A stretch of 64,000 bases of DNA, taken from contig CP126203.1 in the NCBI GenBank assembly GCA_030272155.1, positions 124,001-188,000 on the forward strand, read 5' to 3'. Shown here in pieces: positions 3,764 to 63,154 of this stretch; within the stretch, counting starts at the first letter, position 1, and every line of letters starts with the position of its first letter. This stretch comes from Tetradesmus obliquus (lineage: Eukaryota; Chlorophyta; Chlorophyceae; Sphaeropleales; Scenedesmaceae). The notes under the pieces were generated by a model. The model made no database searches. It was given only the letters and a program-made list of their open reading frames with translations, and was not told the DNA's origin. A program made the position numbers and the translations under genes.

Positions 3764-4497
3764 ATGCCATGCCCCTCGTTCTCAAAACCAGCGCGCACGC
3801 GTCCTGCCACCTCCCACAGCAGCTGCGCGGGTGTGCCCACAACATTTGCCAGCTCAGCATGTAACGAAGCTGTGTGTCTGATACTCAGGGCGGCCTCAGC
3901 CCAGCCCGTACACCCACACAACAGGCTGCAGGCCCCCCAACAAGCTGCCTGCAAGCCGTGTGCCCAAGCAGCCCCCATCAGAACTCTGCACACCTTCTGT
4001 ATTTTGCTGCCCTCAGAACCAGCGCGCCCGTGTGCTGCCAGCCAGCCCCGGCACACCCCACACTGCCTGCAAGCCGTGTGCCCAAGCAGCCCCATGACAA
4101 CTGGTCAGCAGGCATTATATCAATCCAACTGCGCCCTCAGAACCAGAGCGCGCGCGTGCTGCCAGCCAGCACCTCCCACAGCAGCTGCGCAGGTGTGGCC
4201 ACAACATCAGCCAGCTCAGCATGTAACGAAGCACTGTGTCTGGTACACAAGCCAGCCCACTCAGGCCAGCCCAAACACCACACACACAAGCTTCAGGTCA
4301 ACCAATCAACTGCCAGCAAGCCGTGTGCCCAAGCAGCCCCATGCCATCACAGCACACCTTTTGTTCCTGCTGCTGCCCTCAGAACCAGCGCGCGCGCGTG
4401 CTGCCAGCAGGCCCTGGTACACCACACACAGCCTGCAAGCCGTGCGCCCAAGCAGCCCCATGACGACTCAGAACGCCTTTTGTTCCTACTGCTGTCC
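3764..4497 (-). repeat. Tandem copies of the terminal YqgE exon end
   Basis: The last about 80 nt of the RING-CH/YqgE gene (residues ELADVVATPAQLLWEV onward, including the stop) recur at about 4225-4138 and 3865-3764 on the minus strand. The 4225 copy keeps the frame and the same stop. Between them a further unit containing the Trp-Phe-stop end plus about 90 nt of trailer is repeated about four times (starts near 4515, 4410, 4165 and 4035). The block is probably 3' UTR or an alternative terminus. Confidence 0.7.
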
Positions 4498-5313
4498 TCA
4501 AAACCAGCGCGCACGCGTGCTGCCAGCCAGCACCTCCCACAGCAGCTGTGCAGGTGTGGCCACAACATCAGCCAGCTCAGCAGCCGCCACCACGCCCCAC
4601 GCCCCTGCCCGCACCTCTCCCTCCAGCTGCCCGGGGGCCCACACACACACGCCATGAAACAGCCGCAGCGAGGCAGCAAGGCCCACAAGCTCCTGCTGCC
4701 ACAGCTGCTGCTGCTGCTGCTGGGATGGGGGGTGGGATTGGCCAGGGTTGGTGTTTGTGCCGGCTGCAGGCCGGTTGTTGGGCTGCTGCTGCCGGTGTGC
4801 TGAGCCGCGCTGCGTCAGTGGCCAGCGCAGCTTGCTGGCTAGGCCTGATGCGGCCGGAGCAGATCCTGCTGCTGCTGCTGCTGCCGCGCTGTTTGCTTGC
4901 AGGACTGCCTGCAGCAGCACGTCCATGGAGCCGCCCTGGTACAGTGACAGGCTGGCAAGGTTCATTGTTTGGCTGCTGCTGCTGCTGCTGAGCTCAGAAG
5001 GTGCAGCGGCCAGCACTGGCTGCTGCTGCTGCAGGGTCTGCCTCCTGCCTGTGCTGCTGCACGCCCTCAGCATCTTCTGCCACGCCGGCAGCCGCCGCAC
5101 CGGCTGCTGCTGCTGCTGGTCGAGTTCTGCTGCTGTGTCCTGCTGCTGTGGTGCGTCCATCTCCTGCTGTAGTGCTGCTGTTGCTGCAATCAAGGGTGTT
5201 GCGCCGGGCACTGCTGCTATGTGGTGCAGTACCACAGTGTGGCTGGCAGGCCCTGTGCGGCTGGGTAGCCCTACAGGGCCCCCTAGGAAGTGCCGGATGG
5301 CTGCGCCGTGTGC

Positions 5314-5348
<35 letters not shown>

Positions 5349-6541
5349 GTGCGGCCTCTGCCAGGGGCTGGTGCTGCGTCCACAGCGCGCTGTCTGCTGT
5401 CTCCATAGGCTGCAGGGTGAGGCAGAGCAGCGGGCAGCAGCGATGTGAGTGGATGGAGCCGCACCAGCAGTGGCGCACTCAAGCGGGAACATGCAGAGAC
5501 TAAGCCTTTGCGTGTCACACAGCAAGGCCGGTCCGGCAGGCGCATGGGCTGCGGGGTGAGGCAGAGCACGAAGGGCGGCAATGTGAGTTCATGCGGCAGC
5601 AGCAGCACAACCGGCGGAGACATGCAGACTAAGCATGCCAGTGGGTGGAGCAGCAACGGAGTGAGCGGCGAAGATATGCAGGCTAAGCAGTTGCGTGTTG
5701 CACAGCAAGGCCAGACAAGCAGCTGGCTCCCGCTGGCCCTGCAGGCGCATCGGCTGCGTGGTGAGGCAGGCCAGGGGCGGCAGCAATGTGAACTGATGAT
5801 GGAGCCGCTGCGTGCAACTGCTGCTGCATGCATGCAAGTGCACACAAGTGCTGGGGCGTTGCTGCAAGCATGTTAGGCAGCACATGCACGTCGGTGCTAG
5901 AGACAGTGCCATGTGGGCACACGCCTGCCCGCCCTCCCCTGCCATGTGGGTGCCATGTGGGCACACGCCTGCCCGCCCTCCCCTGCCATGTGGGTGCCAT
6001 GTGGGCACACGCCTGCCCGCCCTCCCCTGCCGGCTGGCTGGTCAACAGGTGTGGATAAAACACTAGCAACAGCCTGGTGGCGCAATACATCAGTCATCGA
6101 CAGCATCAACAATGATGACAACCGTTACACAAGTAACGCCCTGCCGCGCGCACCTGGGTGAGCATGACGCCCCGTGCGCCCCTGGCGCTCTTCTCAGTGA
6201 TGAGCACCACCGCAGCAACATCCGCATCAATCAGCATGTAACAGCATGTGTGACGATGTCTCTCGCGCCGCACCTGGGTGAGCATGACGCCCCTGGCCCC
6301 TCGGGCACTCTTTTCAAACAGCAATAACAACAACGACCCACATTACAGATATAACACAGATACAACATGGATATAACACCCAGCCAGAGCGCACCTGGGT
6401 GAGCATCACGCCCCGTGCCCCCCGTGCGCTCTTCTCAGTGACCAGCACCACGCTGCGCTCAAACATGCCACCCTGCAGCGCAGCCCCGTGAGCCACCAGC
6501 AGGCTGCCCGCCTGCAAGCCATCGATGGGCGCGCCGTGCCT

Positions 6542-7026: not shown

Positions 7027-8154
7027 TGAGTGTGTGCAGACTGCAGCTTGGCAAGGCAAGCGAGGCGGCAGCAGCAGCGCGGTGCGGCTGTGTCACAGGT
7101 CAATGATGCTGTGCTGCTGCTGCTCCCAGCTGGCTGCCACACAAACTGAAGCCAGTTGTGCGGCCCGCCAGGCCTATGCCTTGTATGCTGCGCGGCTGCA
7201 TCTCTGCACGACACCACCCTAGCTACAGACACTGATGGATGCCACTCTTTCAGACATACCAGATCCAATCCGTGTGTGGCTGCAGCTGATCCATATTACA
7301 CACTCTCTTGGCTGCAGCTGATCCATATTACACACTTTTTGGCTGCAGCGCACGCCCCACACCGCACCTTGCGCGCCACGTGCAGCGCTGCCTGCGGCGG
7401 CAGGCTGGTGTAGGCGCTGCGGCACACGCCGCACACGGTGGCGCGCTCATCCCTCTTGCCCCCGAGGCGGGCCACGTTGGCCTGCCAGCGGTGCAGGCAG
7501 CCCTGGTGCACCCACTTGAGGGTGCCCTTGCACTTGCAGGGGCTGATCAGCTGCGCAGGGAAGCAGCGTGTGACACACAAGCAACAGCGGAGATATGTGA
7601 GACATAGGTAACGCAGTGGTGAGAGCACGTACGTACTTGAGCGTGCCCTTGCACTTGCAGGGGCTGATGAGCTGCGCAGGTGGTGCGGCAGGCACAGAAG
7701 GAGAAACGAGGTGGAGACGTGAACGATGCAATTGTGAGAGACACGAAGGCAGCAGCATAGGAACACTTGAAGAGCTGGCATTGAATTTTGGCAGCTGGGT
7801 TGTGCCGTTACGGCCCACGGCGTGGGTGGAGAGCTTGCTGCACATGTGAGCGGTAATGTCTGCTTGATGAAGTCTGCTACTGCAGGTGCTGCTCACGGCT
7901 GTGATCACGTTCTTTGGCTGCGAATGTGCTTCATACAGGTTCCCGAAGTACAAGATGTTGTGCACTGCATGCTGCAGGGATGGCCACGTCAGCTTTGCAG
8001 GCACTCCCTGATGCAACCTGGCTGCATTGCTGAGCCAACCCACCTCTGACGGCTTCGCGTCCTCGAAACATATGCGGCATGAGTAGAGAGCTTCTTCTCC
8101 GTCGCAATCAGCCGCAGGCATTGGGGCAGCACGGCACTGAGGCATGCCGAACAT
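4498..8154 (-). CDS. RING-CH / membrane / YqgE (UPF0301) fusion protein, 5 exons
   Basis: Exons: 8154-8044, 7550-7368, 6982-6732, 6539-6395, 5409-4498. All are GT-AG with matching phase; 533 aa. Residues 25-88 form a C4HC3 RING-CH (MARCH-type) finger with CRIC, CKC, VHQGC and CGVC pairs; this family acts as membrane-bound E3 ubiquitin ligases. Exon 3 encodes a very hydrophobic stretch (about residues 105-157) fitting two or three membrane helices. From about residue 192 the protein matches YqgE/AlgH: GSLLVAH, FERSVVLVTEK, GVMLTQ joined to P at the exon 4/5 junction, HFLGGPVG near residue 270, and WAPGQLEGEVRAGAW near 487-501. A Ser run and a Gln/Ala-rich insert interrupt the YqgE part. The function of the YqgE domain is unknown. 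The joint is seen only as matching splice phases, so two adjacent genes remain possible. Confidence 0.75.
5536..5770 (-). repeat. Two extra copies of the YqgE exon 5 acceptor junction
   Basis: The true acceptor joins the exon at 5409. Similar acceptor-plus-exon starts (TGCCTCACC, then GCAG, then CC.ATG) occur with exon-side first bases at 5548 and 5753. The copies diverge after about 10-20 nt of exon. They lie upstream in intron 4, 139 and 205 bp apart. Confidence 0.65.
5909..6031. repeat. 44-bp minisatellite, about 2.8 copies
   Basis: Direct repeats start at 5909, 5953 and 5997. The unit is rich in CCATGTGGG and CCCGCCCTCCCC. It lies inside intron 4 of the RING-CH/YqgE gene. Confidence 0.9.
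6153..6320 (-). repeat. Two extra copies of the YqgE exon 4 donor junction
   Basis: The end of exon 4 (residues EKSARGARGVMLTQ) and its donor CAG|GTGCG are repeated with donors at 6273 and 6153. The true donor is at 6394, giving periods of 121 and 120 bp. The copies encode almost the same peptide, so they are recent or conserved. Confidence 0.85.
7277..7348. repeat. 32-bp tandem duplication in intron 2
   Basis: TGGCTGCAGCTGATCC and its continuation occur at 7277 and again at 7309, with a third partial start near 7340. It lies just downstream of exon 2 of the RING-CH/YqgE gene. Confidence 0.85.
7636..7680 (-). repeat. Extra copy of the RING-CH exon 2 acceptor junction
   Basis: The first about 36 nt of exon 2 (residues LISPCKCKGTLK) with its GCGCAG acceptor are copied, exon side starting at 7671. 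The true exon starts at 7550, a period of 121 bp. The copy lacks the VHQGC part, so using it would destroy the zinc finger. Confidence 0.85.
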
Positions 8155-12383: not shown

Positions 12384-14498
12384 ATGGCGGCAGCACGGCC
12401 TATGGTGTCGGTGCAGGGCCTGGATGGCACCGCAGCAGAGCAGACCACTCTGCCCGCGGTGTTCTCCGCCCCAATCCGTCCGGACATCGTTCGCACGGTG
12501 CACACAAACATGAACAAGAACCACCGCCAGCCCTATGCCGTCAGCATGAAGGCTGGCCACAACACCGCAGCAGAGTCATGGGGAACTGGCCGCGCAGTGT
12601 CCCGTATCCCTCGTGTGCCAGGCGGTGGCACACACAGGGCTGGACAGGGAGCCTTCGGCAACATGTGCCGCGGCGGTCACATGTTTGCGCCCACCAAGAC
12701 CTGGCGCAGGTGGCACAGGAAGATCAACATCAACCAGAAGCGCTACGCAGTGGCCTCCGCACTGGCTGCTTCCGGCCTGCCCGCTCTGGTGATGGCACGT
12801 GGCCACCGCATCGAGCAGGTGCGGCGCTGCTGCAGCTGGGGCCTGGCAGTACTGCTGCTGCTGGTGCTGCTGCTGCTGCGGGTGCTGTGAGCAGCCAATC
12901 AGCAGGCGATTCAGCCATCTGCTGCATGCAACAGCAATAGCAACCGTAATGGATGTGATATGCTGCTGCTAGGGTGGCTGCTGATGTGTGCGCCTGCAGC
13001 AGCTGTTGTGTGAAGGTGCAATGATTGGCATGCAGCAAGCGGAGCAGCTGCTGCTGGCTGATGTGTTGGCATCGCAAACTTAGACAGCAGCTGGGAGCAG
13101 CAGCATGGCGGCACGAATAGCAGCGCAAAGCAGCCGTTGGCACACTGGTCAACAGCAACAGAGCCGAGCAGCAGAATGCTTGTCAGCAATTGTTGCAGCA
13201 GCGGCTGCTGCGGCGGCCGCGTGGTGCAACCAACAGCAGCAGCAGCAGCAGCAGCAGCAGTTGCGCGGTGCAGAAAACAACAGCAGCAGAGCCGTGCTGG
13301 ATGGCAGCAACAGCACAGCCGTGCGTGTGCAGCAGCAGCAGCAGCAGCCGTGGTGTAAACGTCAGCATCACAGCCGTATGTGGGATCAGCAGTGTGGCGC
13401 TGATAGCAGCAATGTCATGTTGATGTCAGCAGCTGACGGCAATCTCAATAAGGTCCACAACAGGAGCAGCAGCAGCCGCGGCATGGTCATGGCAGTGCAG
13501 CCAGCAGCAGCCATCCAGCAGCACAGCAGCCGCAACCTTGCCAACCAGGCACCCGGCAAGCAGCATCTCTAACACCCTTCCTGCCACCTCGCCGCCACGC
13601 ACTTGTTGCCTCCTGCAGGTGGCTGAGGTGCCTCTGGTGGTCAGCGACGCCGCTGAGTCCATCACCAAGACCAGCAAGGCGCTGGAGCTGCTCAAGGCGC
13701 TGGGCGCTGAGGCCGACACGGACAAGGCCCGCGACAGCAAGGCGCTGCGCAGGTGAGGGTTGATAAAGGCAGCAGGTTAGGGTGGGGACAGCAGCAGCAG
13801 CAGCAGCATATGCAGCATGTGACATGGGAAAAGCGTGCAACAGCGAGGCGCTGCGCAGGCGAGGATGCGTCATGTTTAGACGCAAGCAACACGTTTGCGT
13901 CGAGCGCAAGCTCAGCAGCAGCAACAGCAGCAGCATGGACAGCAGCAGCAGCAGCAGCATATGCAGCACATGACACAGAGAAGGCCCGCGACAGCAAACC
14001 GCTGTGCAAACGGGGGCAGCGCGGGCGGATGGCGTGAGCAGCAGCAGCAGCATGCGAAGCACAGGACGTGGAGCAGGCCAAGGACACTGCTGAGGGCAGC
14101 GCAGGTGGCCAGGCAGCTTGGCTGGCAGCAGCAGCAACCCATTCAACAGCAGGCAGCAGCAGCAGTGTCATGACCAGAATGCTTCACAACAGCCAAGCGA
14201 GCGGGTGATATCTTGGCGGAGGTGTGGAGCAGCGGCAACACTCGCACAAGCAGCCAGGGAACAGCAGCAGCTGCCCGGCATATGGCCGTCGCCAGCGCCA
14301 GCCAGCAGCAGTGTGTATTAGAAAAGTGCCACAAACCACCTAAATATATATCCTTCTTGCTGCCCTCCTGCCGTCCTCTGCTGCTGCTGCTTCTCCCTCT
14401 GCTTCTCCCTTTGCCTCCTCCAGGGGCAAGGGTAAGATGCGCAACAGGCGCTACGTGCTGCGCAAGGGCCCGCTGGTGGTGTATGCTGCCATACTCTG

Positions 14499-14542
<44 letters not shown>

Positions 14543-16229
14543 CTTCCAGGGGCAAGGGTAAGATGCGCAACAGGCGCTACGTGCTGCGCAAGGGTCCGCT
14601 GGTGGTGTACGGCGCTGACCACGGCATCAGCAAGGCCTTCCGCAACCTGCCCGGCGTGGAGGTGGCCAGCGTAGACGCGCTCAACCTGCTGCAGCTGGCG
14701 CCGGGCGGCCACCTGGGCCGCTTTGTGATCTTCACCAAGAGCGCCTTCGACCGCCTGGACAAGATCTTCGGTGAGCGCTGCTAATGGTTTCATGTCGCTT
14801 GTGTTGAGTGTTACAACGACAGTGTATCACGGGGCAGTCAGGTGTATGCAGGAGGCCGCTGTCAGCAGCAGCAGTTGCCGTGGTACCGAATGATCAAGAT
14901 TTACAATGAGGCGCATGATATGTGTCATTTGGCGTCGCAGTTGCAGCATATGGGGGGTTACGAAGTTTGCGAGAGGCAGCAGCAGCATGCATGTAAACAG
15001 CTGGTTCTGCTGCCTGGGCAGAGTCTTTGGTGAGGCTCGGCCACCTGTAAAGCATGTCAGTTGTTCGCCACAGCGCAGCTCGGGCTGTTTGGCAGGTCAG
15101 ATCCTGGTTCACACGATTGATGTCAGCCATGTTACTCTAACAGCAAGAGACGCCCCACATTAACCCTGTGAGGCAGAGCCGGGCCGGATGTGACAAGGTG
15201 ACCGGGTGTGACCCTTCTCCACCCCATGCTGTCCTGCAAGCGTCTCACTTTGTGGTTTGCCTGCCCTGTGCTGTCTACTGCTCCTGCAGGCACCACCACC
15301 ACTGAGAGCGAGGTGAAGAAGGGCTACAAGCTGCCCCGCGCGTGCATGACCAACGCTGACGTGACCCGCCTCATCAACTCCGACGAGGTGCAGAGCGTGG
15401 TCAACGCGCCCAAGGCGCCAGCCAACGCCAAGCACTACGCGCTGAAGAAGAACCCGCTGAAGAACCTGGGAGCCATGATCAAGCTCAATCCACAGGCAGC
15501 GTCCGCACGCAGGTGCGCAGTTGGTTGGGCCTCGTTGTGACATGGTCTCCTCTCTGCGGGGGTTGCAGTTGATGGTGGTGATTTGGTGTATGACATGATG
15601 ACCTGCTACATGCTGTTGCCGGCCCGATTGCTGGTTTGTTTTGTAGCGGTTAATGCCGAGGCTCGTGTGCCCCGTGTTGCTGTGATGATATTAGTATCAA
15701 CATACGTCAAGCTCAACAGTCTGAGCTGCTCCGCAGCTTGAGGAGAACGTTTCGTCTGACGCAACACAACACACACGCAGCCTTTTGCTTTGTTAATTGC
15801 TTGACTTGTTTGGTTTGCTTTGAGGTGTTTTTGGTTGTCACCTGACTGTTTTGGTAGTGGCTGTTTTTTTGGGCTCGACTGTTGGTAAAGCAGTACTTTT
15901 GTGGCACATGCACACTAGCTGTCCTCCGCGCCACTTGATACGTCTTCACATCCCCTCATGCACCGACACATACATTCTCACAGCACCCTTTCCTGCAAAC
16001 CCACCACCCGTCACGCCGCAGGTCTGCCATCCTGCTGAGCGAGCGCCGCGCCAAGGAGCGCGCGGAGCGCCTCGCCAAGCTGCGCGCCGGCCAGCCCACC
16101 GGGGCCGCCAAGCGCAGCAAGGCGCAGCAGGCCATTGCCAAGAAGTTCTACGGCCAGCTGGTGGTGGACAGCGAGTACCAGGGCCAGGACTACGAGGTGT
16201 TCGACAAGTGGCTCGGCACCGCGCAGTAG
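12384..16229 (+). CDS. RPL4: 60S ribosomal protein L4 (uL4), 5 exons
   Basis: Exons 12384-12818, 13619-13752, 14550-14770, 15290-15512 and 16022-16229 join in phase to 406 aa, the normal size for plant and algal L4. It is a structural protein of the large cytosolic subunit; its extended loop reaches the peptide exit tunnel. Family blocks are clear: [111 protein letters not shown]. The start ATG lies in AAAATGGCGG, a good eukaryotic context, and directly precedes the conserved N-terminal region. Introns 2 and 1 carry junction copies (listed separately). Codon use is strongly GC-biased, as expected for a highly expressed algal gene. Confidence 0.97.
13826..14111 (+). repeat. Degenerate copies of the RPL4 exon 2 donor end
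   Basis: The exon 2 end (residues [10 protein letters not shown], donor at 13753) is echoed near 13826-13860, 13975-14000 (AAGGCCCGCGACAGCAA is identical) and 14060-14111. The first copy has GC in place of the donor GT. All lie downstream in intron 2. Confidence 0.65.
14424..14487 (+). repeat. Pseudo-exon: copy of RPL4 exon 3 start
   Basis: The first about 60 nt of exon 3 (residues [20 protein letters not shown]) with its CCAG acceptor are duplicated 126 bp upstream of the true acceptor (exon at 14550). After the Tyr codon the copy diverges and meets a TGA within five codons. Splicing to it would truncate L4. Confidence 0.92.
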
Positions 16230-18276: not shown

Positions 18277-19251
18277 CTACGGCACAAGCAGCGCTGCACC
18301 AGCGGCTGCACAGCCGAGAAGCGCAAGCAGGTTGCCAAAGGCAGCACCAAACAACCCCAGCCATTGCATTGATGCCGCACCGCTGGTCTGATGTTATCTT
18401 TCCGGCGTTCATACGTTGTAAAGCAACAACAGTTCATACGCCATGCCCATCTCCCTGGCAAGATATGCTTCAGCCTGCCGTGGTGATCTCACCGTAGAGC
18501 GGGTCCGCCTCCAGGTCTGCCTCCTCGATGTTGACCAGCAGCGTGGGGTTGGACTGCAGCAGCGCGACTGCATACGGCACAGGTTGAAAGGCACATACAG
18601 CCGATATCACTGCAGGCGCCCCAGGCCAGATGCATCACAGATGGGGCACCAACGCAGCACATGCTCCGAAGCCACCTAACGTGTACACTCCTTGCTTGGT
18701 TTGCCGTCATGTGCTGATGTTGCAGATGCCTAGGCCTTCATATCACAAAGCAGGTGGGTCAAAGCCGCGTGCAAAAAGAGCTGTGTTCTGTTGCGGTTGT
18801 CAACACTGCGAGACGCACAAGCAGCAAAGCATGCTGTGGCTGCTGCTGCTTGCTGCTGCACAGCTCCGCCACGCACATGGGTCCTGGTTTGGGAACCAGC
18901 GTGCCAGGTTGGCCAGCGACTGCTGCACCTCTGCAGGGTTGATCAGGTAGGGCACCGCGTCAATGATGGCGTCGATGTCCTGCACCCGTGACAGCAGCGC
19001 CTTGACCTGTAAGCAAAGCCCAGCAGCAGCAGCAGCAGCAGCAGGTGGTGAGATTGTGATGATGGCGTCAATGTCCTGCACCCACGGCAGCAGCGCCTTG
19101 AACTGCATGGCAGTGTAGGCGCAACAAGGGCCAGCAGCAGCAGCAGCCGCAGAAGGGTTGATCAGGTAGGGCACCGCGTCGATGATGGCGTCAACGTCCT
19201 GCACGCGCGACAGCAGCGCCTTGACCTGCATGGCAGAGCAGGCGCAACAAA

Positions 19252-19305
<54 letters not shown>

Positions 19306-20455
19306 GTTCGGCCCTGCGTTGATGATGGCATCATCCAGCGCCTTGACCTGCACACTTGCGGCGTGGAAACACAGTCACAGTTGACTATGCAGCAGGGTGG
19401 CTGTGGGCATGCACGGAAGCATCACGTCGACCTGGCACAGGCTGCTCCTAGCTGCGCCAAACAGACACGTGTGGTTGTTCAGGCATGAACGATGCCTTGA
19501 TAAAACAATGGCATGCACACACTGCCATGCTGCTGCTGCTGCTGCTGCCTCACCTGCTGCGCGTCCGCCTGCACCTGCTCCAGCGGCTTCATCAGCAGCT
19601 TGGGCATGCGCTGCAGCAGGCGCGCAATGTCCACCTGGACCGCAGCAGCAGCAGCAGCAGCAGCAGGCAGGCAGCAGCATTAGAACGGTTGTTGACTGGC
19701 TGTGGCGTGGTGGAGGCAGCAGCCGCGCAATGTCCACCTAAGAGGCAGCTGCCGGTGCTGTTGATGCAGCCATTAGCACTTTGCATAATCTGTTCACACG
19801 AATGCCACATTTAAACAGATAGTGTGTATCAGGCGGCTCGCCTGCTCGATGCAGCCTCCAGCTTGGTGCCCGCTACACGACTTTTTGACACAAACGTTGT
19901 GTTCAATCAGATAGGGTGTGTTGAGACAAGGCATCCGCAGGTACCATTGAGCTGACCTAAGCACAACACTTCATCGATATCATCAACTGAGCCACCCACC
20001 TTGGGGTAGGCCGTCTTGAGGCAGATGACCAGAGCCACCACCCTGTCCACATCCTTCAGGATGCTTGCCTGCAGCAGCACACCACACGCCAGCCAGCAGC
20101 AGTACAGCGGGCAGTTATTTATGTTGCAGTCAGCGCCACCACCCTGTCCACCTCCTTCCCTGAACAAACAGGATGCTTGCCTGCAGCAGTATACCACACA
20201 GCTGTGCTACCACAGCCAGCAGCAGCACAAGCACAAGGCGCAGCACAGCGCCTGCTGCAGCTAGCTGCAAAGAAGTACAAAGATGCACACTGCCCATGTG
20301 CCTGGCGTGCTGGCGCCCATTTTATGTTGGCAGTTATATTCAATTAATAAGCAGCAAGCCTCGCAGCAGCAAGCAGCTGGAGCCACAGCAGACATCAGCA
20401 GCAGCTGCGCAAAACATCCTTGCATGGCCACAGCAACAGGGCAAGGAGATGCGTA

Positions 20456-20496
<41 letters not shown>

Positions 20497-21760
20497 AACC
20501 ATGCTGCTGCTGCTGCTCACCCAGTCTGAGGCCTTCATCTGGTCCAGGTTGGGCGCCAGCCCCGGCACCAGCTGCTGCAGCTTGCCCAGGTTGGCCTCAA
20601 TCACCTGGCAGCAGCAGCAGCAGCAGCAGGACGGTGACCGCCACCAGCAGCAACAAGAACCACCATCCCAGCGCAGCCGCAAATGCAACTGCAGCGATTG
20701 CTACACAAGCAGGGGTGTGCTTTCCAAATTGAAAGCTTGCTGCATGCCTGCAGCAGCAGAGCCACAGTCACCGCCCCCACCTCTGCCGAGGTGCCCTGCT
20801 TGGCTGCTGCTGCGGTCATCTCAGCCAGCTCGCGCTTGCGGCGCCGCGCTGCCAGGTCCAGCTGCTGGAAGGGCTCCACCTGCGGCGGCAGCGGCGGCAG
20901 CAGCAGTGGCAGCGGCAGCAGCAGCAACAGGGGCAGCAGCAGCAGCAGCACGGGCAACTGGTCGACATATTTGCTTAGCGATAGCAACAAGGAAGGTCCA
21001 GCTGCTGGAAGGGCTCCACCTGCGGCGGCAGCGGCAGCAGGGGCAGCAGCAGGGACAAGGTCTATGTTGCAGTCACGTTGCTTCTTGAGCCAAAGCAACA
21101 GGCAAGGTCCAGGCGCAAGGGCGACACCTGCCAGATGTGTAACGCACCAGCTGGGGCACGTGTGTGCAGCATGACCATATGCATACACGCCACCGCAGCA
21201 GCTGCTGCAACAGGCAGTACTGCCGCATGTGGCGAACAACTGCAGTTTGATCCATCTATGTAGAAACTGCGTCCTATTGATGCTGCCCTGCGCTGCACCA
21301 GCATGCTCACCTTATCTTTCTTCAGGTACAAGCTGCTGAGGGTGTGGTTGACTGCCAGCGTGTTCTCCCACTTGTCTGGCTGCTGCTCTTGGCTGCTGCT
21401 GCTGCTGCTGCTGCTCCTGTTAGGTTCAGCAGCAGCTCTGCTACTGCTGGGATCAGCAGGACTGCTGGCTGCAGCTGCAGCAGCTGCTGCAGTGCTGCTG
21501 TGCATGCGGGGGTCTACTGCACTGAAGGGGTCCGTGTACTCTGCTGGAGTAACTGCTGCTTGTGCACCGGCATCCGAAGGTTTGTTAGGTTGTTTTGAAC
21601 TGGTCGTTGCGTCTTTGCGGCTTGCTCTGCAACGACAGCGACTGATCGGCAGGCTGGCAAGCAAACTGTCTCCCGGCGTGCCAGTCGGCTGCAACCGCGG
21701 CCTTTTCACTTGCTTTGTGCCACATTGGGCACCAAAGTTGTGAAAACACAGGGAACGCAT
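18277..21760 (-). CDS. Helical-repeat protein, probably organellar (mTERF-like at best), 8 exons
   Basis: Exons 21760-21311, 20879-20781, 20604-20521, 20068-20000, 19634-19554, 19006-18877, 18567-18493 and 18305-18277 join in phase to 338 aa. The N-terminus (MRSLCFHNFG, then basic and Ser/Thr-rich, then an Ala/Ser-rich linker) looks like an organelle transit peptide. The C-terminal half has three related helical units ending in P-x-L-L: VDIARLLQRMPKLLM, VDAIIDAVPYLINP (IDAIIDAVPYLINP in the model), and FALLQSNPTLLVNI. This layout recalls mTERF-type repeats that bind organellar nucleic acids, but I cannot confirm the family. The first in-frame ATG after an open upstream stretch was chosen. The last two small exons are the least certain part. 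Confidence 0.6.
19050..19353 (-). repeat. Three extra copies of the exon 6 acceptor junction
   Basis: Copies of the CAG|GTCAAGGCGCTGCTG start have exon-side first bases at 19102, 19225 and 19347; the true exon starts at 19006. Periods are 96, 123 and 122 bp. The 19225 copy retains about 70 nt of coding sequence as far as LINP; the 19347 copy keeps little more than VKAL and DDAIIN. Confidence 0.88.
19717..19744 (-). repeat. Extra copy of the exon 5 acceptor junction
   Basis: About 24 nt of exon 5 (residues VDIARLL) with a CTTAG acceptor recur about 100 bp upstream of the true exon start at 19634. Confidence 0.8.
20130..20172 (-). repeat. Degenerate copy of exon 4 start
   Basis: The GCAG|GCAAGCATCCTG start and the later VDRVVAL stretch of exon 4 recur about 100 bp upstream of the true exon at 20068, with a small insertion between them. 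Confidence 0.75.
20996..21030 (-). repeat. Extra copy of the exon 2 acceptor junction
   Basis: The first about 30 nt of exon 2 (residues VEPFQQLDL) with the GCCGCAG acceptor are repeated, with a (GCC/GCT)-rich leader also copied. The true exon starts at 20879. Confidence 0.85.
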
Positions 21761-43062: not shown

Positions 43063-43101
<39 letters not shown>

Positions 43102-43595: not shown

Positions 43596-43630
<35 letters not shown>

Positions 43631-43714
43631 CCGCTGTGCAGCCATCTTAGGTGCTGCCTGCAGCACTGCTGGCAGCGCGGGCAACAAGCCTGCAGTGAAC
43701 CACAACCAACAAGC

Positions 43715-43752
<38 letters not shown>

Positions 43753-47140: not shown

Positions 47141-49454
47141 ATGATTAGCGCCTTCCCGTCTCTCGATCTCGACCTAGCAGGCCTCGATACGCCGGCCTTC
47201 CCGCTTGACTTTAATCCAGAATTGCTATTAAACGATGAAAGCACAGCTGACGATTTCCACAACTGGCTGCAGTCCGAGCTAGACATCTTGCAGGACAGCC
47301 CCAAGGCAGCAGCAGATGATGTGGCCACGGAGCAGCCTAGCGCGCCTTCTTGGGGCTCGTCTGATGCTGGCAGTGGTCCTGGGCAGCATCAGGCAGGCAG
47401 CAGCGGCATGCAGGCTGCACCTGGCATAGTGGAGCTCTTCCAGCTGCAGGCATTGGCACCAGGGCCGAATGCATCTCAGCAGGGCCCCTGGATGGAGCCG
47501 CAGCTTCTCATGCAGCAGCAGCAGCAGCAGCAGCAGCAGTTGACCGTGCATCAGCAGTTCGCCGTGCAGCAGCAGCAGCAGCAGCAGCAGCAGGCGACGC
47601 AGGCAACGCAGGCCTTAGCTGCTGCCACAGCTGGCATGCAGCTGGCGATGCAGGGGAAGCAGGAGGCAGTCTCTACAGGCATGCTGTACCAGCAGCAGCC
47701 ATACGAGATGCAGTACATGCAGCAGCTGCAGCCGGGCCTGCAGCAGCAGCAGTACATGTACATGCCACAGCCAGGCCCGCAGCAGCAGCAGCAGCAGCAG
47801 CAGCTCCCAGGCAGCTTTGTTGCTGCTGCCCCCCAGGTCATGATGCAGCCGTACCCGCAGATGCTGCCAGGGCAGCTCCTGCAGCCATACAGCCAGGCCA
47901 TGTTTCCTGGCACTGGCTTCCCAGGTATGGTGCTGCCTCCTGCTTGGGGTGCAGGCATGCCAAACGGCGGCGCTGCTGCTGCCGGCAGCAGCGGCTATGC
48001 CATGCCAGGCAGCAGCAGCGGTTTCCTGCAAGTGAGCCCAGTCAACATGCAGCCCATGATCTCAGAGGCCCTGCTGAGTCCTGCAGGCAGCAGCTACTAT
48101 GCAGAGCCCTCACCCACAGCTGCTGCTGCAGCCTTCGCTGACGCACAGCAGCAGCAGCAGCAGCATGGCAGGGCTGGCAGTGGCCACAAGGCCACTGGTG
48201 CAGCAGCAGCGGCAGCAGCAGCAGTGGCAGCAGCAGCAGTGGCAGCAGCAGCAGCTGAGAAGCCGAAGCCTCCCTCGCGGCGCTTCAGGTGGGCTGGCTG
48301 GCAGGTCTGGCTGAGTTCCGAGTTATGCTGCGTGTTTGCTTGCGCAGGCTGCACGCCTGTCTTTGCTGCTGTGCCCATACTAGATGCGCATACCTGCTGT
48401 GTTTTCATGCGTGCGGCCCACTCTACTGGCAGCCTGCGAGTACTGGCTAGATGCTGTATGCATGCGCAGCATGGCCCTTGGTAGCCATCTACACAAGGTG
48501 TATGTTTGCTTGCCCCGCTTACTTCCTCGCTTGCTTGCGCGCTTGCTTCTGCATTCTTGCGCGCCTGTGTTGCATGTTTGCACATGCATGCGCACTTCTG
48601 CGCGGTGTGCCAATAGTTTGGTGCATCTGCTGCCGCAGGGAGCGCCAGAAGGAGACCGTTAGCAGCCTGGACGCGGAGGTCACTGCTTGCCTTGCTGCCT
48701 GCATTGCTGCTCCATAACAAACACCTGCTGTGCATGCTGTTGCTTCCTTGCAGGGAGCGCCAGAAGGAGACCGTTAGCAGCCTGGACGCGGAGGTCACTG
48801 CTTGCCTTGCTGCCTGCATTGCTGCTCCATAACAAACACCTGCTGTGCATGCTGTTGCTTCCTTGCAGGGAGCGCCAGAAAGAGACCATCAGCAGCCTTC
48901 AAGCAGAGGTCACTGCTTGCCTTCCTGCCTGCATTGCTGCATCATAACAACACCCGCTGCGCATGCTGTTGCTCCTCTGCAGGGAGCGCCAGAAGGAGAC
49001 CATCAGCAGCCTGGAGGCGGAGGTCGCTGCTTGGCTTGCTGCCTGCATTGCTGCTTCAAAACAAAACCTGCTGTGCTTGTTGTTGCTTCCTTGCAGGGAG
49101 CGCCAGAAGGAGACCATCAGCAGCCTGGAAGCAGAGGTCACTGAAAAGCTGGCGCAGCTGCAGGCGCTGAGTGCAGAGAATGAGATGCTCAAGCTGCGCT
49201 CTGCAGTGCTGGAGGCGACTGTCAAGGGCCGCGAGTACCACGTGAGGCGCAGCAACATGCCACTACTACTAATACTACTGATAATTCTTTTAATTCTTTG
49301 ATTGCAAGCTGTTATCTAGCGGTGGTGCTTGTTTGCTGGTGCTTGCGCGCGCGGGTGCGCACTGCAGCAGCTGCTAGCGCCGCCACCTGGTGAGCCTCGC
49401 GTGATGCTGCTTGTGCACGTACCTTACGCAAGTGGCTAACAGCACTGCGTTCCT

Positions 49455-49940: not shown

Positions 49941-52147
49941 CAAGGAGGGTGAGGACGAGGCCGACTGTGGCGGGCTGGCGTGCTGCGACGCGCCTCAGCT
50001 GTGCTCTGCCGCGCAGCAGAAGAAGACCATCAGCACGCTCAAGCACATGAGCACAGGTGGGTGGGTGGGGGGGGGCTGTCACGGTGCAATGGCGCTGCCA
50101 TCAGTTGTTGATGGCGCGCCACAGCTTGTGGAGCTTCTGTTGGTTGCCTTTTTTCGTGTGTACTTGCTGCAGCACCAGACATGCGATTGACTTGACGTCC
50201 ATCTAGCAGGTTGTTATGCGTCGACTTGCTGCTCACGTGCTGTCATTTCGCTGCTGCTGCTGCTCCTGCTGCTGCCGCTGCCGTGCGTTTGCAGATGAGA
50301 TCATCAAGCACTGGAAGCAGTTTGTGCACGACGTGACCGGCGAGCTGCTCGCCGCAGAGCAGGAGCAGCAGCAGGCCGCACAGGCAGCCGCATCAGCTGG
50401 CAGCGACGCCACAGCAGCAGCAGCAGCAGCAGGGCCCGGTGCCATCGACAGCAGCAGCGCTGAGCCGTGCAGTGCCACCACCAGTGCTGCTGCTAGTGTT
50501 GCAAAAATCTGCCGCTGGTGCAGCTGCAGTGACTCGCAGGAGCACTCTGCTGAGGCCTGCGAGGCGCAGCAGCGGCAGCAGCAGCAGCAGCGCGACGGCC
50601 TGCCGGCGGATGCCAATGCAGATGCGAATGCAGCAGCGAGTGAGGGCCGCGGCTGCGGCGGCGGCAAGGACCCGGTTGTTATGGCTGAGAGCGGGTCGGG
50701 CCACCCTGGTGCTGCGAGGATTCAGGCGCTGGTCAACCGCTACTCGTATATGACCAAGTTTGTGGCGCTGCTGAACCCAGGTGAGCAGCGGAGCCTACAG
50801 CAATATGCACGCCTGCCTGCCTGCGCTGCCAGCATGCATTGCGAGCGTCAGTCCTCACATGGCCAAATGTGTGGCGCTGCTGAGTCCACCGCACCACCAG
50901 ATGGATGCGCAGGCGCAGGTGTGCAGCTGACACAGCAGATGCCTCGTGGCGTGCCTCTTATTTGTCACAGCATTTGACATGACACGCGTATGTATGTATG
51001 CCGAAACACAAATCGCCTGTGCACGCATGTGCAGGTGTGTACCACCTGCACGGGTGCCACCTAGACAGCGGGCTGCCTGCACGCTGCTGTTTGCCACCTG
51101 TTTGCCAACTATCTTGCATGCGCTGCTGCCGCCACCTGCATATGCAGGTGTGCTGTACCACCTGTACGGGCGCCACCTAGACAGTGGGCTGCCTGCGCCT
51201 TACAGCGATGACCACTGGCGCCAGGTGGTGATGCGCCTGGGGCTCAGCAAGCACCAGGTGCGCGGGCTTGATTTTGCTGTATGTTTTGTACGAAGTTTTG
51301 TTCTTACAGAACGTACAAAACATTGTTTTTTAAGCTTGTGGACTGTTGGGGTTGCTGCAGTTGGATTGTGTGTACTGCTGCTCTGGGTGTGTACAGGTGT
51401 GTGTTTCACAGCTCTGCGGAGCTGCTGGGTTTGCTGCACTGCAGTGTGGTGCTGCCCTGCATGTTCCCCAGGTACATCTCATGCAAGCCGCTGCTGATCA
51501 CCGCCCGCACATGCGTCTATCCCTGCTGTCGGGTTGTGTGACGTGTGTGACTTTTCATTTTCCCGCAGGTCACGGTCATCCTGGCGTGTGCTGAGCTGTA
51601 CTTCAGCAGCATGAGTGCGCTGCTGCAGCAGCGGCGCGGGCTGCAGCAGCAGCTGAAGCAGGCTGATGAGGGCCTCAGCGAATGCCAGCGGCGGCTGCTG
51701 GGGGTGGATGGCGGGCTCAACCAGCTGCAGGTGCGGTTTTGAATAAGGGAACATGTTTGACTAATGTCCGTGTTTGACGGTATGTCTGTGTTTTACTGCT
51801 GCCGCCCTGTTGGGCGTGGACGGCGGGCTCAACCAGCTGCAGGTGTGAACTAGAGTCTAAAGCACGTGTCTATAACTGCAGTACGTGTTTTGAGTGTGGC
51901 TTAAGTTCAGTGCACATGTTTGATTGACGTCTGTTTGACTGGCTGACGCCCTGTTGGGCGTGGATGGCGGGCTCAACCAGCTGCAGGTGCAGTTGTGTAG
52001 GCTGCGGTGGTGGCCGAGCAGCTCCTGACTCGTGTGCAAAACCCGCCAACTGCAGACTAATATGTGTAGCATTGTGCAACTGCTGTTGGTGTCTTTAGCG
52101 TGCTGCTGTTTTTCTCTTGGCTCATATGTGCCACGTGCCACCCTGCA

Positions 52148-58006: not shown

Positions 58007-61000
58007 ATGGATTTGGACAACGACAACTGGGCTGCTGTGCACCAGCAGCTGCTAGAGGAGCCTGGAATAGCTGCTATACCTAGTCACTTGCAGAACTACT
58101 CGCCTGATGTTCATGGCACGCTCTTCGAAAACCCAGGCAGGTGGCTTGCGGAGTTTGGATGCTCCGAGCCATATAGTAATGGTGCCACGGGTGTTCCTGG
58201 TGTGCAAGGAAATGGCTTTGATGGCAGAGGCAGCTCGGGCGTAGCAGCATCGGGAGCAGGCAAGGTCAGCAGCGAACCCGGGCTTCCGGGAGCAGCACCT
58301 TCTCAACACGCGCCAGGGTCCCAGCAGCAAGATGTATGGGGTCTTCCTGGGCAGACTGGGCCGTTGCTGGGACAGCTACAGCAGCAGCAGCTACAGCAGC
58401 AGCTGCAGATGGGGAGTTCACACATGCAGCAGCAGCAACAGCATGGCCATGGCATGCCAGGCAGCACCCAGCAAGGAGTGGCCAGCTCGCCGCAGCAGCA
58501 ACAGCAGCAAGCCAACCAACAACAGCAGCAAGCACAGCTGCAGATCGCTCAGCTGCAAGGCCTTCAACTCCTGCAGCAGCAGCAGGCTCAGCAGCCAGTG
58601 CTGAGCTCCGCACACCAGCATCAGCTATGGGGCCTGCAGCAGCAGCTGTGGACGCTGCAGCAGCAGGCGGCACTCATCTCACAGCAACAGCAGCAACTCG
58701 GCATGCCGCTGGCGGTGGTGATGCAGCAGCAGCCGCAGCAGCAGGCTGGCCAACCAACTTCACTGCCGATGCAGCTGGCCATCCCTCTGAACGTCTCAGC
58801 AGGCTTGCAGGGCGCGTCAGCAGCATCATTCACCGCCCCCAGTGCACAACAGCAGCAGCAGCACAGCATACCCGGCCTGCCTAACATGGGGCTCGCTCAA
58901 AACGGCTTGCCGCACGTCCCGCTCAGCGTCGCAGCGGCCGCAGCTGCTGCAGCAGCCAATCCTGCTGCACACGCCAAGCGGCAGCGTGCTCCTGCAAGGC
59001 GCGGCGGCTCTGGCTCCGGCCCATCGTCCGCATTCAACACAGCAGCCGCAGCCGCCATGGCTGCCGCGCAGCACCACAGCATACAGCTGCAGCCGCAGCT
59101 CTGGGGCATGGCCAGTGTCAAGAAGCCCAAGGAGAAGCACAGGAGTGTGGTGGGGCAGCTGGAGGCAGAGCTGCAGGAGAAGCTGAGCCAGCTGCAGCTG
59201 CTATCTGCGGAGAACGAGATGCTGAAGCTGCGCGCGGCGGTGCTGGAGGCCACGGTGCAGAGCAGGGAGGACCAGGTGGGTGTGGCACAGCATGCTGCAT
59301 GTGCGTTTGTTCACAGGTTTGCTTGCTTTTGGGGGTTGAGGAGCGATGTACAGGCTGGGCTCAGAGCTGCATGTTTGTCCATCTGTTGTTGGGAAGAAGA
59401 GCGCTTTTGGCCTTGCGATGCTGTTGTGTGTACACGCAGTTGGTGGTTGGTGGTTGGCTTGTGTTTCAGCATGGTTGCATGCGTGTTGCGTGTGTGGTGT
59501 TGCATACATTTAGTTGCAGCAACAGGGTCTGCAGGGGATTTGGGCTGCTGCTGATCTGCGCAGCTGCTGCTGATCTGCCGTGCTGGGGGGCACAGCAAGA
59601 GCTCCAAGCAGCATGCACAGCGGGCAACACACCACAGTAGAACGCTGCTGGCGAACGGATGACCATGATCCAGCTTGAACTGCTTCGCTGCCCGGCTGTG
59701 CCTTAAAACTCACCCTGACTGCGCTGCCCTGTTTTCGCCTGCCGCATCGCCTGTCTGCAACCTCTGCTGCTGCTGACCTGTCTGCAACCTCTGCTGCTGG
59801 CCCGCAGATGCGTGTGATCAGCGAGCACGGGCCGCCAGTGTATCCAGTAGACTCGCCCACACCCGCTGCCTCAGCAGCAACCGCAGCCACCAGCAACACC
59901 TCTGGCGACACAGGCTCCCCATCAGCAGCAGCAGCAGCTGCTGCTGCTGCCGGCAGCAGGCCTGGGCTGCCTGCTGACCTGCAGAGCAGCGGCTCCACTG
60001 CTGCAGGAGAGGCGGGCGCAGCAGCTGCTGCAGCTGCTGCCACTGCTGTGCATGGGGAGGGCTTGAGTGACGAGGCGGCTGCCACCCCAACGGCTGTTGA
60101 GGTTGATGGCAGCGGCAGTCCTGCAGTGCAGCAGGAGGGGCAGCCCGAGGCTCATCTGGAGCAGCAGCGGCAGCAGCACCATGTGGCTACGCTTGCAGAC
60201 TTCAGGGTAAGCGGAGATGCTGCATATGTGCGTTGCTGCTGCCGTTCCTGGTGTGCAAGGTTTTTGCGAAGCTATGCTTGTGGGACTGTTGCTGTGTGCT
60301 GTCTCATTTTGATGTGGCTTGTGGCACACGTGGGGCACATGCTTGGCTGCAACCTTTACAGCCACTTGCGCGGGCTCACAACAGGCATCATCCTCAACCG
60401 CCCATTGCTGTCACGTGGCCTGGCTGTCGGCATGGCAACGCATGTAACCTGTGTGAACGCACAATGCAACCCTTACGCCCCGCGTTCCGCTGCATGATGT
60501 GGCGCGACACGTGTTCATGCTTGCAGGACAACGTGTGTGGTGCGCGTGCCGCGGTCAAGGCGATGAGTGTGGAGGACATCATTCGGCACTGGAAGCAGTT
60601 CCTGCAAGACGTCACCGGGGAGCTGGTCAACGTGCAGCGCGAGGAGAGCAGCGCAGCCTTCAAGCAGCAGCAGCAGGCGGCAGCAGCAGCAGCTAGGCCA
60701 CATGGCATGTGCGCTGCTGCCGTGGCTGCAAACGGCGATGCTGCTGGCGCTGCAGGCGATGGTGTATCTGCAGAGGCAGCAGCAGCAGCGGCAGCAGCGG
60801 GCGCTGATCCGGGGCTGAGCCCCAGCCATGCGCGCATTAACGAGATGGTGGCCAAGTACAGCTTCCTGGTCAAGACTGCGCAGCAGCTGAACCCAAGTGA
60901 GTGAGATGCGTATTATAGTGAACAGTACAGCTACCTGTATTGGAAAGTGCAGCTGCTTGCAGTACATGGTGCAGCTTCCTGGTCAACTGCGCAGCAGCTG

Positions 61001-63154
61001 AACCCAAGTGAGTAGTCGGTGCAGTGATGTGCGTAGTACAGCCTCCAGTAGAGCATAGGACAGCTTCCCATACATCATATGTACAGCTTCCCATACATCA
61101 TAGAACATAGTCCTGTGGTACGCTGTACAGCTTCCTGGTCAAGTGCAGCAGCTCAAGCCAAGCGAATAAGATGCGCAGTAGTACAGCCACCTGTATGAAC
61201 AAGCATAGTGCAGCTTCCTGGTTATAGCTGCATGCTCCGTATGTGTCAGCTGTGATCTGTTATTGCCGCCTGGTGCCTGCTGCTGCTGCTGCAGGCGCGT
61301 ACTGCCGGCTGTTTGGCACCAACCTGGATACTGGACTGCCCGCACCCTACAGCGACGCGCACTGGCGGCGCGTGGTGTCAGTGCTGGGCCTCACCAAGCA
61401 CCAGGTACGCTTGTCCTCTGTTTGGGTTTGAATGTTTTGGTTGTTTGTGCTGGGCCCCACAAAGCACCAGGTGGCAGGTGAACCACATCCTGGCGTACTG
61501 CTGCTCTTTCTGGTGCTGATGGCCTTGTATGTTCACCGCGCTGTGCGTTGGCTCGCTGACCTGCGACACTTGTGGCTGCCTCATGTGCCTGTAGGTGAAC
61601 CACATCCTGGCGTGTGCGGAGCTGTACTTCTCGTGCCGCGCCAAGCTGCAGAGCGAGCAGCGCGTGCTGCAGCAGCACCTGAAGGCCACCGCTGCCTCAA
61701 CAGAAAGCATGCTGTCGGGTGAGCTGCATGTGCCCAACATTCTGCCTGCAGCACTCGCCAGCTGTATGCCACCTCAGGCAGTCCACAACATGAAATGCAG
61801 GTGGCTACAGTACGGCTGTTGCGTGTGGCAGCGTCACCTGCGAGCGCTTTTGCTTGACAGCCATGCATCATTGTCAACGTGCCTGCCTAGCAGCTGCTGG
61901 TCTGGCTGCCACTTAACTCAACGCCTGCCCTGCTGCTGCTCTTCTGCCCTGCTGCTGCCTTGTAACATAACAATAACATAACACAATAACACACACCACC
62001 AGGTGCAGGTGACGACGCGGCCATACAGCCGTGGCTGGACCGGCTGGCCAGCAACCTGAAGCGCGAGCACGTGCTGCGCGTGATGCTCAACAGCTTTGTG
62101 TGGTGCACCATCTTCACGCCCGTGCAGTGCGCCAAGGCGGCCGTGTACAGGTGGGTGACAGGAGAGGCGTCCACTTACTGCTGCTTTAGCCAACATGCGT
62201 GTACAGGTGGGTGACAGGAGAGGCGTCCACTTACTGCTGCTTTAGCCAACATGCGTGTACAGGTGGGTGACAGGAGAGGCGTCCACTTACTGCTGCTTTA
62301 GCCAACATGCGTGTACAGGTGGGTGACAGGAGAGGCGTCCACTTACTGCTGCTTCAGCCAACATGCGTGTACAGGTGGGTGACAGGAGAGGCGTCCACTT
62401 ACTGCTGCTTTAGCCAACATGCGTGTACAGGTGGGTGACAGGAGAGGCGTCCACTTACTGCTGCTTTAGCCAACATGCGTGTACAGGTGGGTGACAGGAG
62501 AGGCGTCCACTTACTGCTGCTTCAGCCAACATGCGTGTACAGGTGGGTGACAGGAGAGGCGTCCACTTACTGCTGCTTCAGCCAACATGCGTGTACAGGT
62601 GGGTGACAGGAGAGGCGTCCACTTACTGCTGCTTTAGCCAACATGCGTGTGCAGGTGGGTGACAGGAGAGGCGTCCACTTACTGCTGCTTTAGCCAACAT
62701 GCGTGTGCAGGTGTGCGTAGCTGCGACTTGTGGGTATGTGCATTGCGCCAAGGCCGTGTACAGGTGCGTCATGCGTCGGGAGGATGTTGGGTGTACAGTT
62801 ACACGCGGTCTGCCAGCTCAACTGTAGGCAGCAACGACGGTGCTGCCATGCATGTCCTTGCTGGTGTTGGCGGACATGATAGTGGCAGACACTGGCGATC
62901 ATGATAGTAGCATTGCTGCTACGCCGCCTGCAGTCAGTCGAGCACTTTGCACTGACATCCTGCTGACATCGCTGTTGCTTGCTCTGGTCCTTTGCTGCCG
63001 CTGCAGCCACCCCTGGTATGTGGACGTGCACGCCATCGTGTGTGTGATGTGTGAGGACGCGCTCACGCAGCCTGCCAGCGGGCAGCGCGCGCTGGTGTTC
63101 CCGCACCGCCTGCAGACCAGCCCGCTGCAGCAGATGCAGCAGATGGTGATGTGA
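58007..63154 (+). CDS. bZIP-like regulator, second of the tandem pair, 7 exons
   Basis: Exons 58007-59275, 59808-60206, 60527-60896, 61295-61404, 61595-61718, 62003-62150 and 63007-63154 join in phase to 855 aa. It is a paralogue of the gene at 47141: shared blocks include LSAENEMLKLRAAVLEATV, the SEHGPPVY exon start, IIRHWKQFLQDVTGEL, TGLPAPYSDAHWRRVV, ILACAELYFSC, ASNLKREHVLRVML and VDVHAIVCVM. The region before the zipper (KKPKEKHRSVVGQLEAEL) is only weakly basic and lacks the bZIP Asn, so it may work as a dimer partner rather than a DNA binder. There is no intron between the Gln-rich region and the zipper, unlike the first gene. The frame is open upstream of 58007, where the first ATG in a sensible context lies. 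Confidence 0.8.
60970..61220 (+). repeat. Copies of the second bZIP gene exon 3 donor end
   Basis: AGCTTCCTGGTCAA..GCGCAGCAGCTGAACCCAA|GTGAGT (true donor 60897) recurs with a donor at 61008, and again at 61128-61165 with the donor changed to GC. A shorter CAGCTTCCTGGT echo is near 61208. Confidence 0.92.
61440..61500 (+). repeat. Adjacent copies of exon 4 end and exon 5 start
   Basis: GTGCTGGGCC.CAC.AAGCACCAG|GT at about 61446-61471 copies the end of exon 4. GGCAG|GTGAACCACATCCTGGCGT at about 61474-61498 copies the start of exon 5 (true 61595). One intron thus carries copies of both its flanking exon ends. Confidence 0.9.
62143..62765 (+). repeat. 56-bp minisatellite, 10 units, seeded by the exon 6 donor
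   Basis: Units start at 62143 and every 56 bp to 62647, ending at 62702; an eleventh partial start is at 62703. Each begins GTGTACAG|GTGGGTGACA, the last bases of exon 6 plus its donor (true GT at 62151). The units differ at only one or two positions. The last full unit, starting at 62647, and the partial have GTGTGCAG. A separate copy with more exon (GCCAAGGCCGTGTACAG|GTGCG) follows at about 62747-62770. Confidence 0.97.

Follow-up and report, generated by a model that had tools for sequence, protein, structure and literature searches.

In the green alga Tetradesmus obliquus, the ends of coding exons recur, together with their splice sites, as short direct copies within the adjacent introns. 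We found this pattern in a 64,000-nucleotide stretch of genomic DNA (C13:124001-188000, contig CP126203.1; hereafter the window), which carries RPL4, THOC1, and several other genes, and again in blocks sampled on two other contigs, so that about two fifths of all sampled introns were affected. The copies leave true splice sites ringed by look-alikes. The reading that we favor, at somewhat less than even confidence, is that junction-spanning units of ~120 bp are duplicated in tandem and that their exon-derived parts are then homogenized with the real exon as the anchor.

Sample and gene models

We analyzed the window together with block A (C1:2.0-2.1 Mb) and block B (C5:3.0-3.1 Mb). This sample amounts to 264 kb, or ~0.25% of the 17-contig genome (104,662,953 bases), and blocks A and B were placed by hand rather than randomized by a program. 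Genes were modeled with a hidden Markov model with splice-site weights, trained on the same three regions without RNA support and used in a version that penalized introns strongly and kept its priors fixed. The gene finder fuses some adjacent genes (e.g., model 18470-29877), sets some starts wrongly, and at first annotated several of the copies as exons. Before counting, we removed 31 predicted exons (8 in the window, 5 in A, and 18 in B) that were either short copies of a neighboring exon or below 12 nt in length. Since removal turns a copy-like exon into an intronic copy, the counts depend on this choice. Only introns of 80-2500 bp were counted, 230 in all. The window has a GC content of ~58%; a published table gives the species a GC content of 57% and a mean intron length of 462 bp (PMC5966456).

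Exon ends recur in adjacent introns

Local self-comparison revealed direct repeats in 98 of the 230 introns, compared with 2 of 230 after shuffling in 4-base blocks. The adjacent exon end took part in 92 introns, and only 6 had repeats that were wholly internal. Some of the 92 are counted for repeats that involve exon sequence but do not span the junction, as in 22 of 270 alignments, where sequence from the exon alone is paired with sequence from the intron. Affected introns numbered 25 of 51 in the window, 21 of 94 in block A, and 46 of 85 in block B; the pattern therefore recurs beyond the window, on three contigs, and the window resembles block B and is not unique. They were also clustered by gene, with 0 of 2000 permutations as extreme: 9 of 12 THOC1 introns were affected, as were neither of the two introns of model 40775-44295 and none in several block A genes.

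An earlier note on the window had described copies in over thirty places, and we located 44, at 25 exon-intron junctions. It had also placed them at most introns of the region, which is too high for the window, where about half of the introns are affected, although the recurrence that it suspected is seen in the blocks on two other contigs. A looser alignment count over the 51 window introns gave 25 with exon-end repeats (17 donor-side and 17 acceptor-side) and 3 with intron-internal repeats only; these 25 introns and the 25 junctions are separate counts. Across all 230 introns, alignments crossed the junction at 50 donor and 44 acceptor introns, and 49 donors and 38 acceptors remained when at least 20 nt of exon was required. 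Re-location then placed 138 copies, distributed over 80 of these 87 junctions. Inverted repeats were counted at the same threshold and occurred in 39 of 230 introns, with short palindromes among those listed, and because they are also frequent, the direction of the copies is a better control than shuffling.

Copies keep to one side of the junction

We tested direction with 60-nt probes at a fixed score across the window and both blocks. Probes from exon donor ends matched the downstream intron at 27 of 184 exons and the upstream intron at 1 of 184, while probes from acceptor starts matched the upstream intron at 21 of 182 and the downstream intron at 0 of 182. Mid-exon probes had no match in either adjoining intron (0 of 74 and 0 of 74). 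The earlier statement that acceptor copies lie upstream and donor copies downstream is thus almost absolute. Direction alone is to be expected, since on the exon side a copy would disrupt the protein; the unexpected part is that so few repeats are confined to the intron. When the probe was the first 60 nt of an intron, 7 of 114 matched the rest of that intron, as did 5 of 105 probes from the last 60 nt. Mid-intron probes matched the rest of their intron at 14 of 118, about the frequency of exon ends, which weighs against the placement result; this count includes probes that fall on the copies themselves.

The nearest copies carry splice sites of their own, with GT at 47 and GC at 2 of 49 donors and AG at 34 of 38 acceptors, and our gene models imply that the spliceosome would have to choose the outermost site each time. 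At junctions with exons shorter than 150 nt, a copy reached the exon's far end in only 1 of 43 cases, in near-complete agreement with the earlier claim that copies never include the whole exon.

Copies have a typical spacing and accompany longer introns

The exon-derived part of a copy measures 20-97 nt, most often 30-50. The nearest donor-side copy lies at a median offset of 121 bp (interquartile range 106-134, n = 49) and the nearest acceptor-side copy at 126.5 bp (117-136, n = 38), and some gaps between copies are about double the usual spacing. Copies within an array also share their far edge: the median difference was 4 nt, compared with 16 when permuted (35 arrays), and 45 of 92 copy pairs had far edges within 3 nt where 12 were expected. 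We sought a sequence motif at this edge and obtained no clear signal. Offsets divisible by three were scarce (16 of 87), which may be a bias of the gene finder. A separate observation comes from a light-harvesting gene (L042:841-1003), where a 39-bp direct repeat, 100% identical, has an offset of 124 bp, the usual spacing.

Introns with zero to four copies had median lengths of 309, 405, 535, 720, and 815 bp (n = 157, 36, 22, 8, and 4), a slope of ~124 bp per copy. The earlier proposal that introns grow by duplication of AG/GT-containing segments therefore holds insofar as junction segments are copied with their splice site and introns with copies are longer. Its tie to the AGGT model of intron gain is not supported: an exon-end AG was present at 33 of 49 copied donors and 113 of 181 others, with no clear enrichment. 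Likewise, an exon-start GT (14 of 38 copied acceptors versus 47 of 192 others) was neither required nor clearly enriched.

Copies resemble the exon independently of their flanks

Identity between the real exon and its copies (0.899) exceeded that among copies (0.864), and was higher in 26 of 34 arrays (P = 5e-5). There was no gradient with distance, since the nearest copies were 0.901 identical to the exon and farther ones 0.909 (P = 0.79). The arrays thus form a rough star with the exon as its hub and no growth gradient, which fits either re-copying from the exon or selection holding the copies near the exon's sequence and is at odds with stepwise birth at the junction. The 15 arrays of at least three copies held only 22 parsimony-informative sites in total, and 5 arrays held none.

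Among the 138 copies, flank identity was at least 0.72 in 29 and below 0.66 in 97. Exon divergence was 0.089 in copies with homologous flanks (n = 29) and 0.087 in those without (n = 97), so flank homology does not track exon divergence. Simple tandem duplication is an incomplete account, as it predicts homologous intron flanks and over half of the good copies lack them. Where exon identity was at least 0.94, flank identity fell below 0.66 in 10 of 19 copies, compared with 2-4% in simulated plain decay; at exon identities of 0.90-0.94, the corresponding values were 18 of 30 and 6-18%. By a second measure, only 4 of 19 flanks of the copies with at least 94% identity rose above the random 97.5% level. 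One array has three copies that match the exon at 97-100% identity, yet spacers that appear unrelated, except that the flank after the last copy resembles the real one for ~20 bp. Block B supplies a control in the form of old internal repeats, whose introns are still alignable at 0.75-0.84 (aligned parts) beside exons at 0.73-0.78, which indicates that faster decay of introns than of exons is not the general rule here.

In searches of the genome, two arrays matched their own locus only, and a third had only 38-44 bp pieces elsewhere. We rejected an origin from a diverged paralogue, as a THOC1 segment matched only its own intron array. In a donor array at L012:2950-3500 (minus strand), one spacer contains a piece of ~40 bp that occurs at seven other genome places with 88-95% identity.

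Copies are not maintained as coding sequence

Gaps in the copies were frame-shifting in 33 cases and in-frame in 8, and 6 changed codons gave stops. The frame-shifting gaps imply that the copies are not maintained as coding sequence. Exon and copy differ at 141, 80, and 304 sites at codon positions 1, 2, and 3 (~2,000 sites each), and the third-position bias persists in gapped copies (ratio of 2.51, bootstrap 1.67-3.88). Together with the frame-shifting gaps, this bias in gapped copies led us to reject the idea that the copies are translated, exon-like units. CpG alone does not account for the bias, which is partly unexplained. Part of it must stem from synonymous change in the exon between times of copying; by a rough reckoning from the counts of shared and private changes, subtracting those of the exon lineage would leave the copies' private changes spread almost evenly over the codon positions.

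Copies and other repeats in the window

The copies located in the window are as follows, each line giving the extent, the strand, and the copies.

6154-6395, minus: RING-CH/AlgH-like gene, donor-side copies 6274-6316 and 6154-6210; exon end 6395
7550-7671, minus: RING-CH/AlgH-like gene, acceptor-side copy 7635-7671; exon start 7550
13752-14008, plus: RPL4 (by Pfam), donor-side copies 13821-13858 and 13972-14008
14374-14609, plus: RPL4, acceptor-side copy 14424-14483; exon start 14550
19634-19737, minus: model 18470-29877, acceptor-side copy 19716-19737
20879-21019, minus: model 18470-29877, acceptor-side copy 20994-21019
25267-25428, minus: model 18470-29877 (API5/SPOC part), donor-side copy 25267-25295
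26579-26689, minus: model 18470-29877, donor-side copy 26579-26601
31949-32396, plus: THOC1, acceptor-side array; copies judged by eye to begin at 31957, 32070, and 32207, and the exon at ~32345
33098-33488, plus: THOC1, donor-side array 33210-33264, 33316-33375, and 33452-33482; exon end 33158
34390-34501, plus: THOC1, donor-side copy 34469-34491; exon end 34412
35252-35607, plus: THOC1, acceptor-side copies 35301-35352 and 35429-35479; exon start 35556; full-unit array
35654-35776, plus: THOC1, donor-side copy 35746-35776
36200-36688, plus: THOC1, donor-side array 36297-36329, 36397-36435, 36529-36560, and 36643-36672; spacers little alike
37299-37445, plus: THOC1, donor-side copy 37394-37441; exon end 37346
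37574-37738, plus: THOC1, acceptor-side copy 37601-37622; exon start 37713
38193-38471, plus: THOC1, acceptor-side copies 38207-38239 and 38313-38358; exon start 38426
38507-38689, plus: THOC1, donor-side copy 38580-38608 and another at 38656 by eye; exon end 38535
38897-39677, plus: THOC1, acceptor-side array of six copies at 38921, 39048, 39160, 39262, 39367, and 39493; exon 39618
48635-49143, plus: bZIP-like gene 1, acceptor-side array with four copies at intervals of 114-115 bp; exon start 49097; for the most part a full-unit tandem
51025-51196, plus: bZIP-like gene 1, acceptor-side copy 51038-51080; exon start 51148
51695-51997, plus: bZIP-like gene 1, donor-side copies 51807-51842 and 51951-51986; exon end 51730
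60856-61218, plus: bZIP-like gene 2, donor-side copies 60969-61007 and 61125-61161; exon end 60896
61404-61470, plus: bZIP-like gene 2, donor-side copy 61447-61470
62142-62763, plus: bZIP-like gene 2, ten 56-bp tandem units (the exon's last 9 nt plus the donor), then a copy at 62738-62763; exon end 62150

At the first THOC1 array (31949-32396), the gene finder set the exon start at 32366 rather than at the ~32345 read by eye. In the genome search, the array at 36200-36688 had no further match, and that at 38897-39677 occurred at its own locus only. The part of the last entry at 62142-62713, with about ten successive donor sites in near-identical units, is a plain and, it appears, young tandem array.

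The earlier note had assigned the copies to seven genes. Pfam matches above the cut-off support RPL4, THOC1 (efThoc1), RING-CH (RINGv), API5, and SPOC; the AlgH-like DUF179 fell below the cut-off, as did MYND, and the two bZIP-like segments that were submitted had no Pfam match.

Other repeats were also noticed in the window. Repeats of ~119 and 366 bp at 3778-4582 continue beyond the end of the exon at 4498-5409 (minus strand), the last of the RING-CH/AlgH-like gene, and are a possible equivalent at a gene's 3' end. A 178-bp unit is repeated 5.6 times at 45565-46536, between two gene models and away from any predicted exon, and a 197-bp unit at 22550-22945 is present in two copies, 98-99% identical, within a predicted intron, an intron-only duplication. 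Runs of CAG/CTG are very common in the window and the other loci and often adjoin acceptor sites, and the predicted proteins have long Gln, Ala, and Ser runs.

How the copies may arise

Under tandem duplication followed by exon-anchored homogenization, a ~120-bp unit across a splice junction would be duplicated, with one exon end staying in place and the other landing in the intron. The outermost site would still be used, leaving the protein unchanged and the intron ~120 bp longer. The intron part of the unit would then diverge, while the exon-derived part would be re-copied repeatedly from the real exon, by short-tract gene conversion or by template switching between direct repeats. The exon would win in this exchange because selection purges bad changes in the opposite direction. 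Homology would consequently shrink to the exon end and its splice site, while the ~120-bp spacing and the common far edge would persist. Conversion and the choice of splice site are what this reading would add to direct observations, namely the copies, their direction, spacing, and common edge, the extra intron length, and a similarity between exon and copy that is independent of the flanks.

Several results weigh against this reading. Some arrays, such as 48635-49143, are plain full-unit tandem repeats. The slope of intron length could partly mean that longer introns tolerate more copies. Incompatible pairs made up 7 of 20 pairs of informative sites, too few to prove exchange. The third-position ratio of 2.75 (bootstrap 2.11-3.46) stands against a neutral expectation of ~1.8 by our own rough reckoning, copies differ from one another at 0.097, 0.066, and 0.218 per site over the three codon positions, and conversion alone does not predict such a bias. 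Finally, paralogues of light-harvesting genes have exon pieces that are ~80-94% identical beside unalignable introns, which shows that strong exon constraint can by itself be enough to make exon and intron similarity diverge over long times. The rejected idea that introns simply evolve very fast is partly favored by these paralogues, and the internal repeats of block B speak against it.

Exon matches to Chloroa_b-bind, the light-harvesting family, occur at 52 places in the genome, and we sought recent pairs of these paralogues with and without a copy; none had alignable introns. As a side observation, one light-harvesting locus (L031) has an unbroken series of exon matches where gaps separate them in two others, of 245-400 bp in L034 and of ~250 bp in L030; this is suggestive of recent gain or loss of introns among these paralogues.

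The chief rival to duplication and homogenization is junction-aware copying, which we consider rather unlikely. A process that recognizes splice junctions, probably via the transcript or the splicing complex, would place a segment of 35-90 bp, with its end just beyond the junction, in the adjacent intron, and no 120-bp unit would be duplicated. This would suit homology that typically continues for no more than a few bp after the junction (in 34 of 90 cases, a donor alignment reaches less than 10 bp into the intron), the rarity of intron-only repeats (6 of 230 introns), and the often unalignable flanks of the best copies. However, it leaves unexplained the ~120-bp quantum, the common far edge, the ~124 bp of intron per copy, and the equally spaced full-unit arrays.

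We hold it to be unlikely that random ~120-bp segments are duplicated in tandem and then decay neutrally, with exonic duplications purged and the exon partner evolving slowly. Plain decay does cover a minority class of arrays, including the full-unit arrays at 48635-49143 and 35252-35607 and the 56-bp array at 62142-62713. The direction of the copies would follow from the need for an intact exon, the old repeats of block B keep their introns alignable, and there is precedent in a duplicated intron-exon boundary described for a potato gene (PMC4974935). The same block B control, however, makes unalignable spacers beside copies of at least 94% identity hard to explain, and random placement should yield many intron-only repeats, which make up just 6 of the 98 repeat-bearing introns. 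The simulation likewise argues against plain decay as the sole process.

It is also conceivable, if distinctly improbable, that the copies are kept by selection for a role in splicing or expression, for example as decoy or back-up sites or in rare isoforms. Retained splice dinucleotides, the third-position bias, and the clustering by gene would all agree with this, as would the scarcity of offsets divisible by three, as if mis-use should shift the frame; but frame-shifting gaps are frequent, the bias extends to gapped copies, genes in block A are often free of copies, and in-frame copies could have been hidden by absorption into the gene finder's exons. An artefact of assembly or gene modeling is very improbable: although we made the models ourselves and removed predicted exons from them, the copies differ mutually and have unrelated spacers, unlike products of mis-assembly, the copy-free RPL4 and THOC1 models match PF00573 (residues 6-182) and PF11957 (efThoc1; residues 51-446) in one stretch each, and the pattern is the same on three contigs.

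Relation to known systems

A single junction-crossing duplication has been described at one intron-exon boundary of a potato RdRp gene (PMC4974935), and models of intron gain include tandem duplication, with cases in Drosophila (PMC2891723). As in those accounts, duplication of a gene segment here would add splice sites and leave the protein unchanged. Unlike in them, existing introns would grow, at the same junction and repeatedly, in 40% of the sampled introns and with no need for AGGT; spacers are often unrelated, and what was seen are copies within existing introns rather than new intron positions. Like intronic minisatellites and tandem repeats, the copies form head-to-tail arrays with a characteristic unit length, and some window arrays are of this kind, but the copies are anchored to exon ends, on a single side, and their non-exon part is often unrepeated. 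They also differ from the whole-exon duplications behind mutually exclusive exons, since just one short-exon junction had a copy with the far exon end.

Introner elements are one sequence family at many loci. They resemble the present case in that one process alters many introns of one genome; here, in contrast, each locus repeats its own exon end, and the arrays searched against the genome had no full counterpart elsewhere. Concerted evolution by gene conversion also keeps copies alike for longer than expected and can have the functional member as its hub, but the array here would straddle the exon-intron border, and the homogenized segments would be only tens of bp long. The open-access literature that we searched (titles, the starts of abstracts, and some passages, with most subscription journals outside it) yielded nothing like a genome with two fifths of sampled introns bearing such arrays. 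The expression "partial exon duplication" may have been used for introns of scenedesmacean algae. A term search in the main text of one candidate paper (PMC7955037) returned neither "intron" nor "splic".

Significance

These observations touch on two open questions, namely where intron length comes from and how the spliceosome ignores near-perfect copies of its own sites. In this genome, true splice sites have dozens of natural duplicates, set in tens of nucleotides of authentic exon context, graded in similarity, and at a fixed distance; these would permit direct tests of how splice sites are chosen and of how fast junction copies are born, refreshed, and lost. Gene annotation is affected as well, as our gene finder at first took several copies for exons. 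If exon-anchored re-copying is true, it would amount to concerted evolution across the exon-intron border. More broadly, it is possible, though we lean toward doubt, that a junction-coupled process acts genome-wide, copying exon ends and splice sites into the flanking intron or continually re-setting such copies, so that the end of a coding exon would evolve as a member of a concerted array otherwise hidden in the intron. If so, this process would have marked ~40% of introns in the 264 kb sampled and would be a main cause of intron length here.

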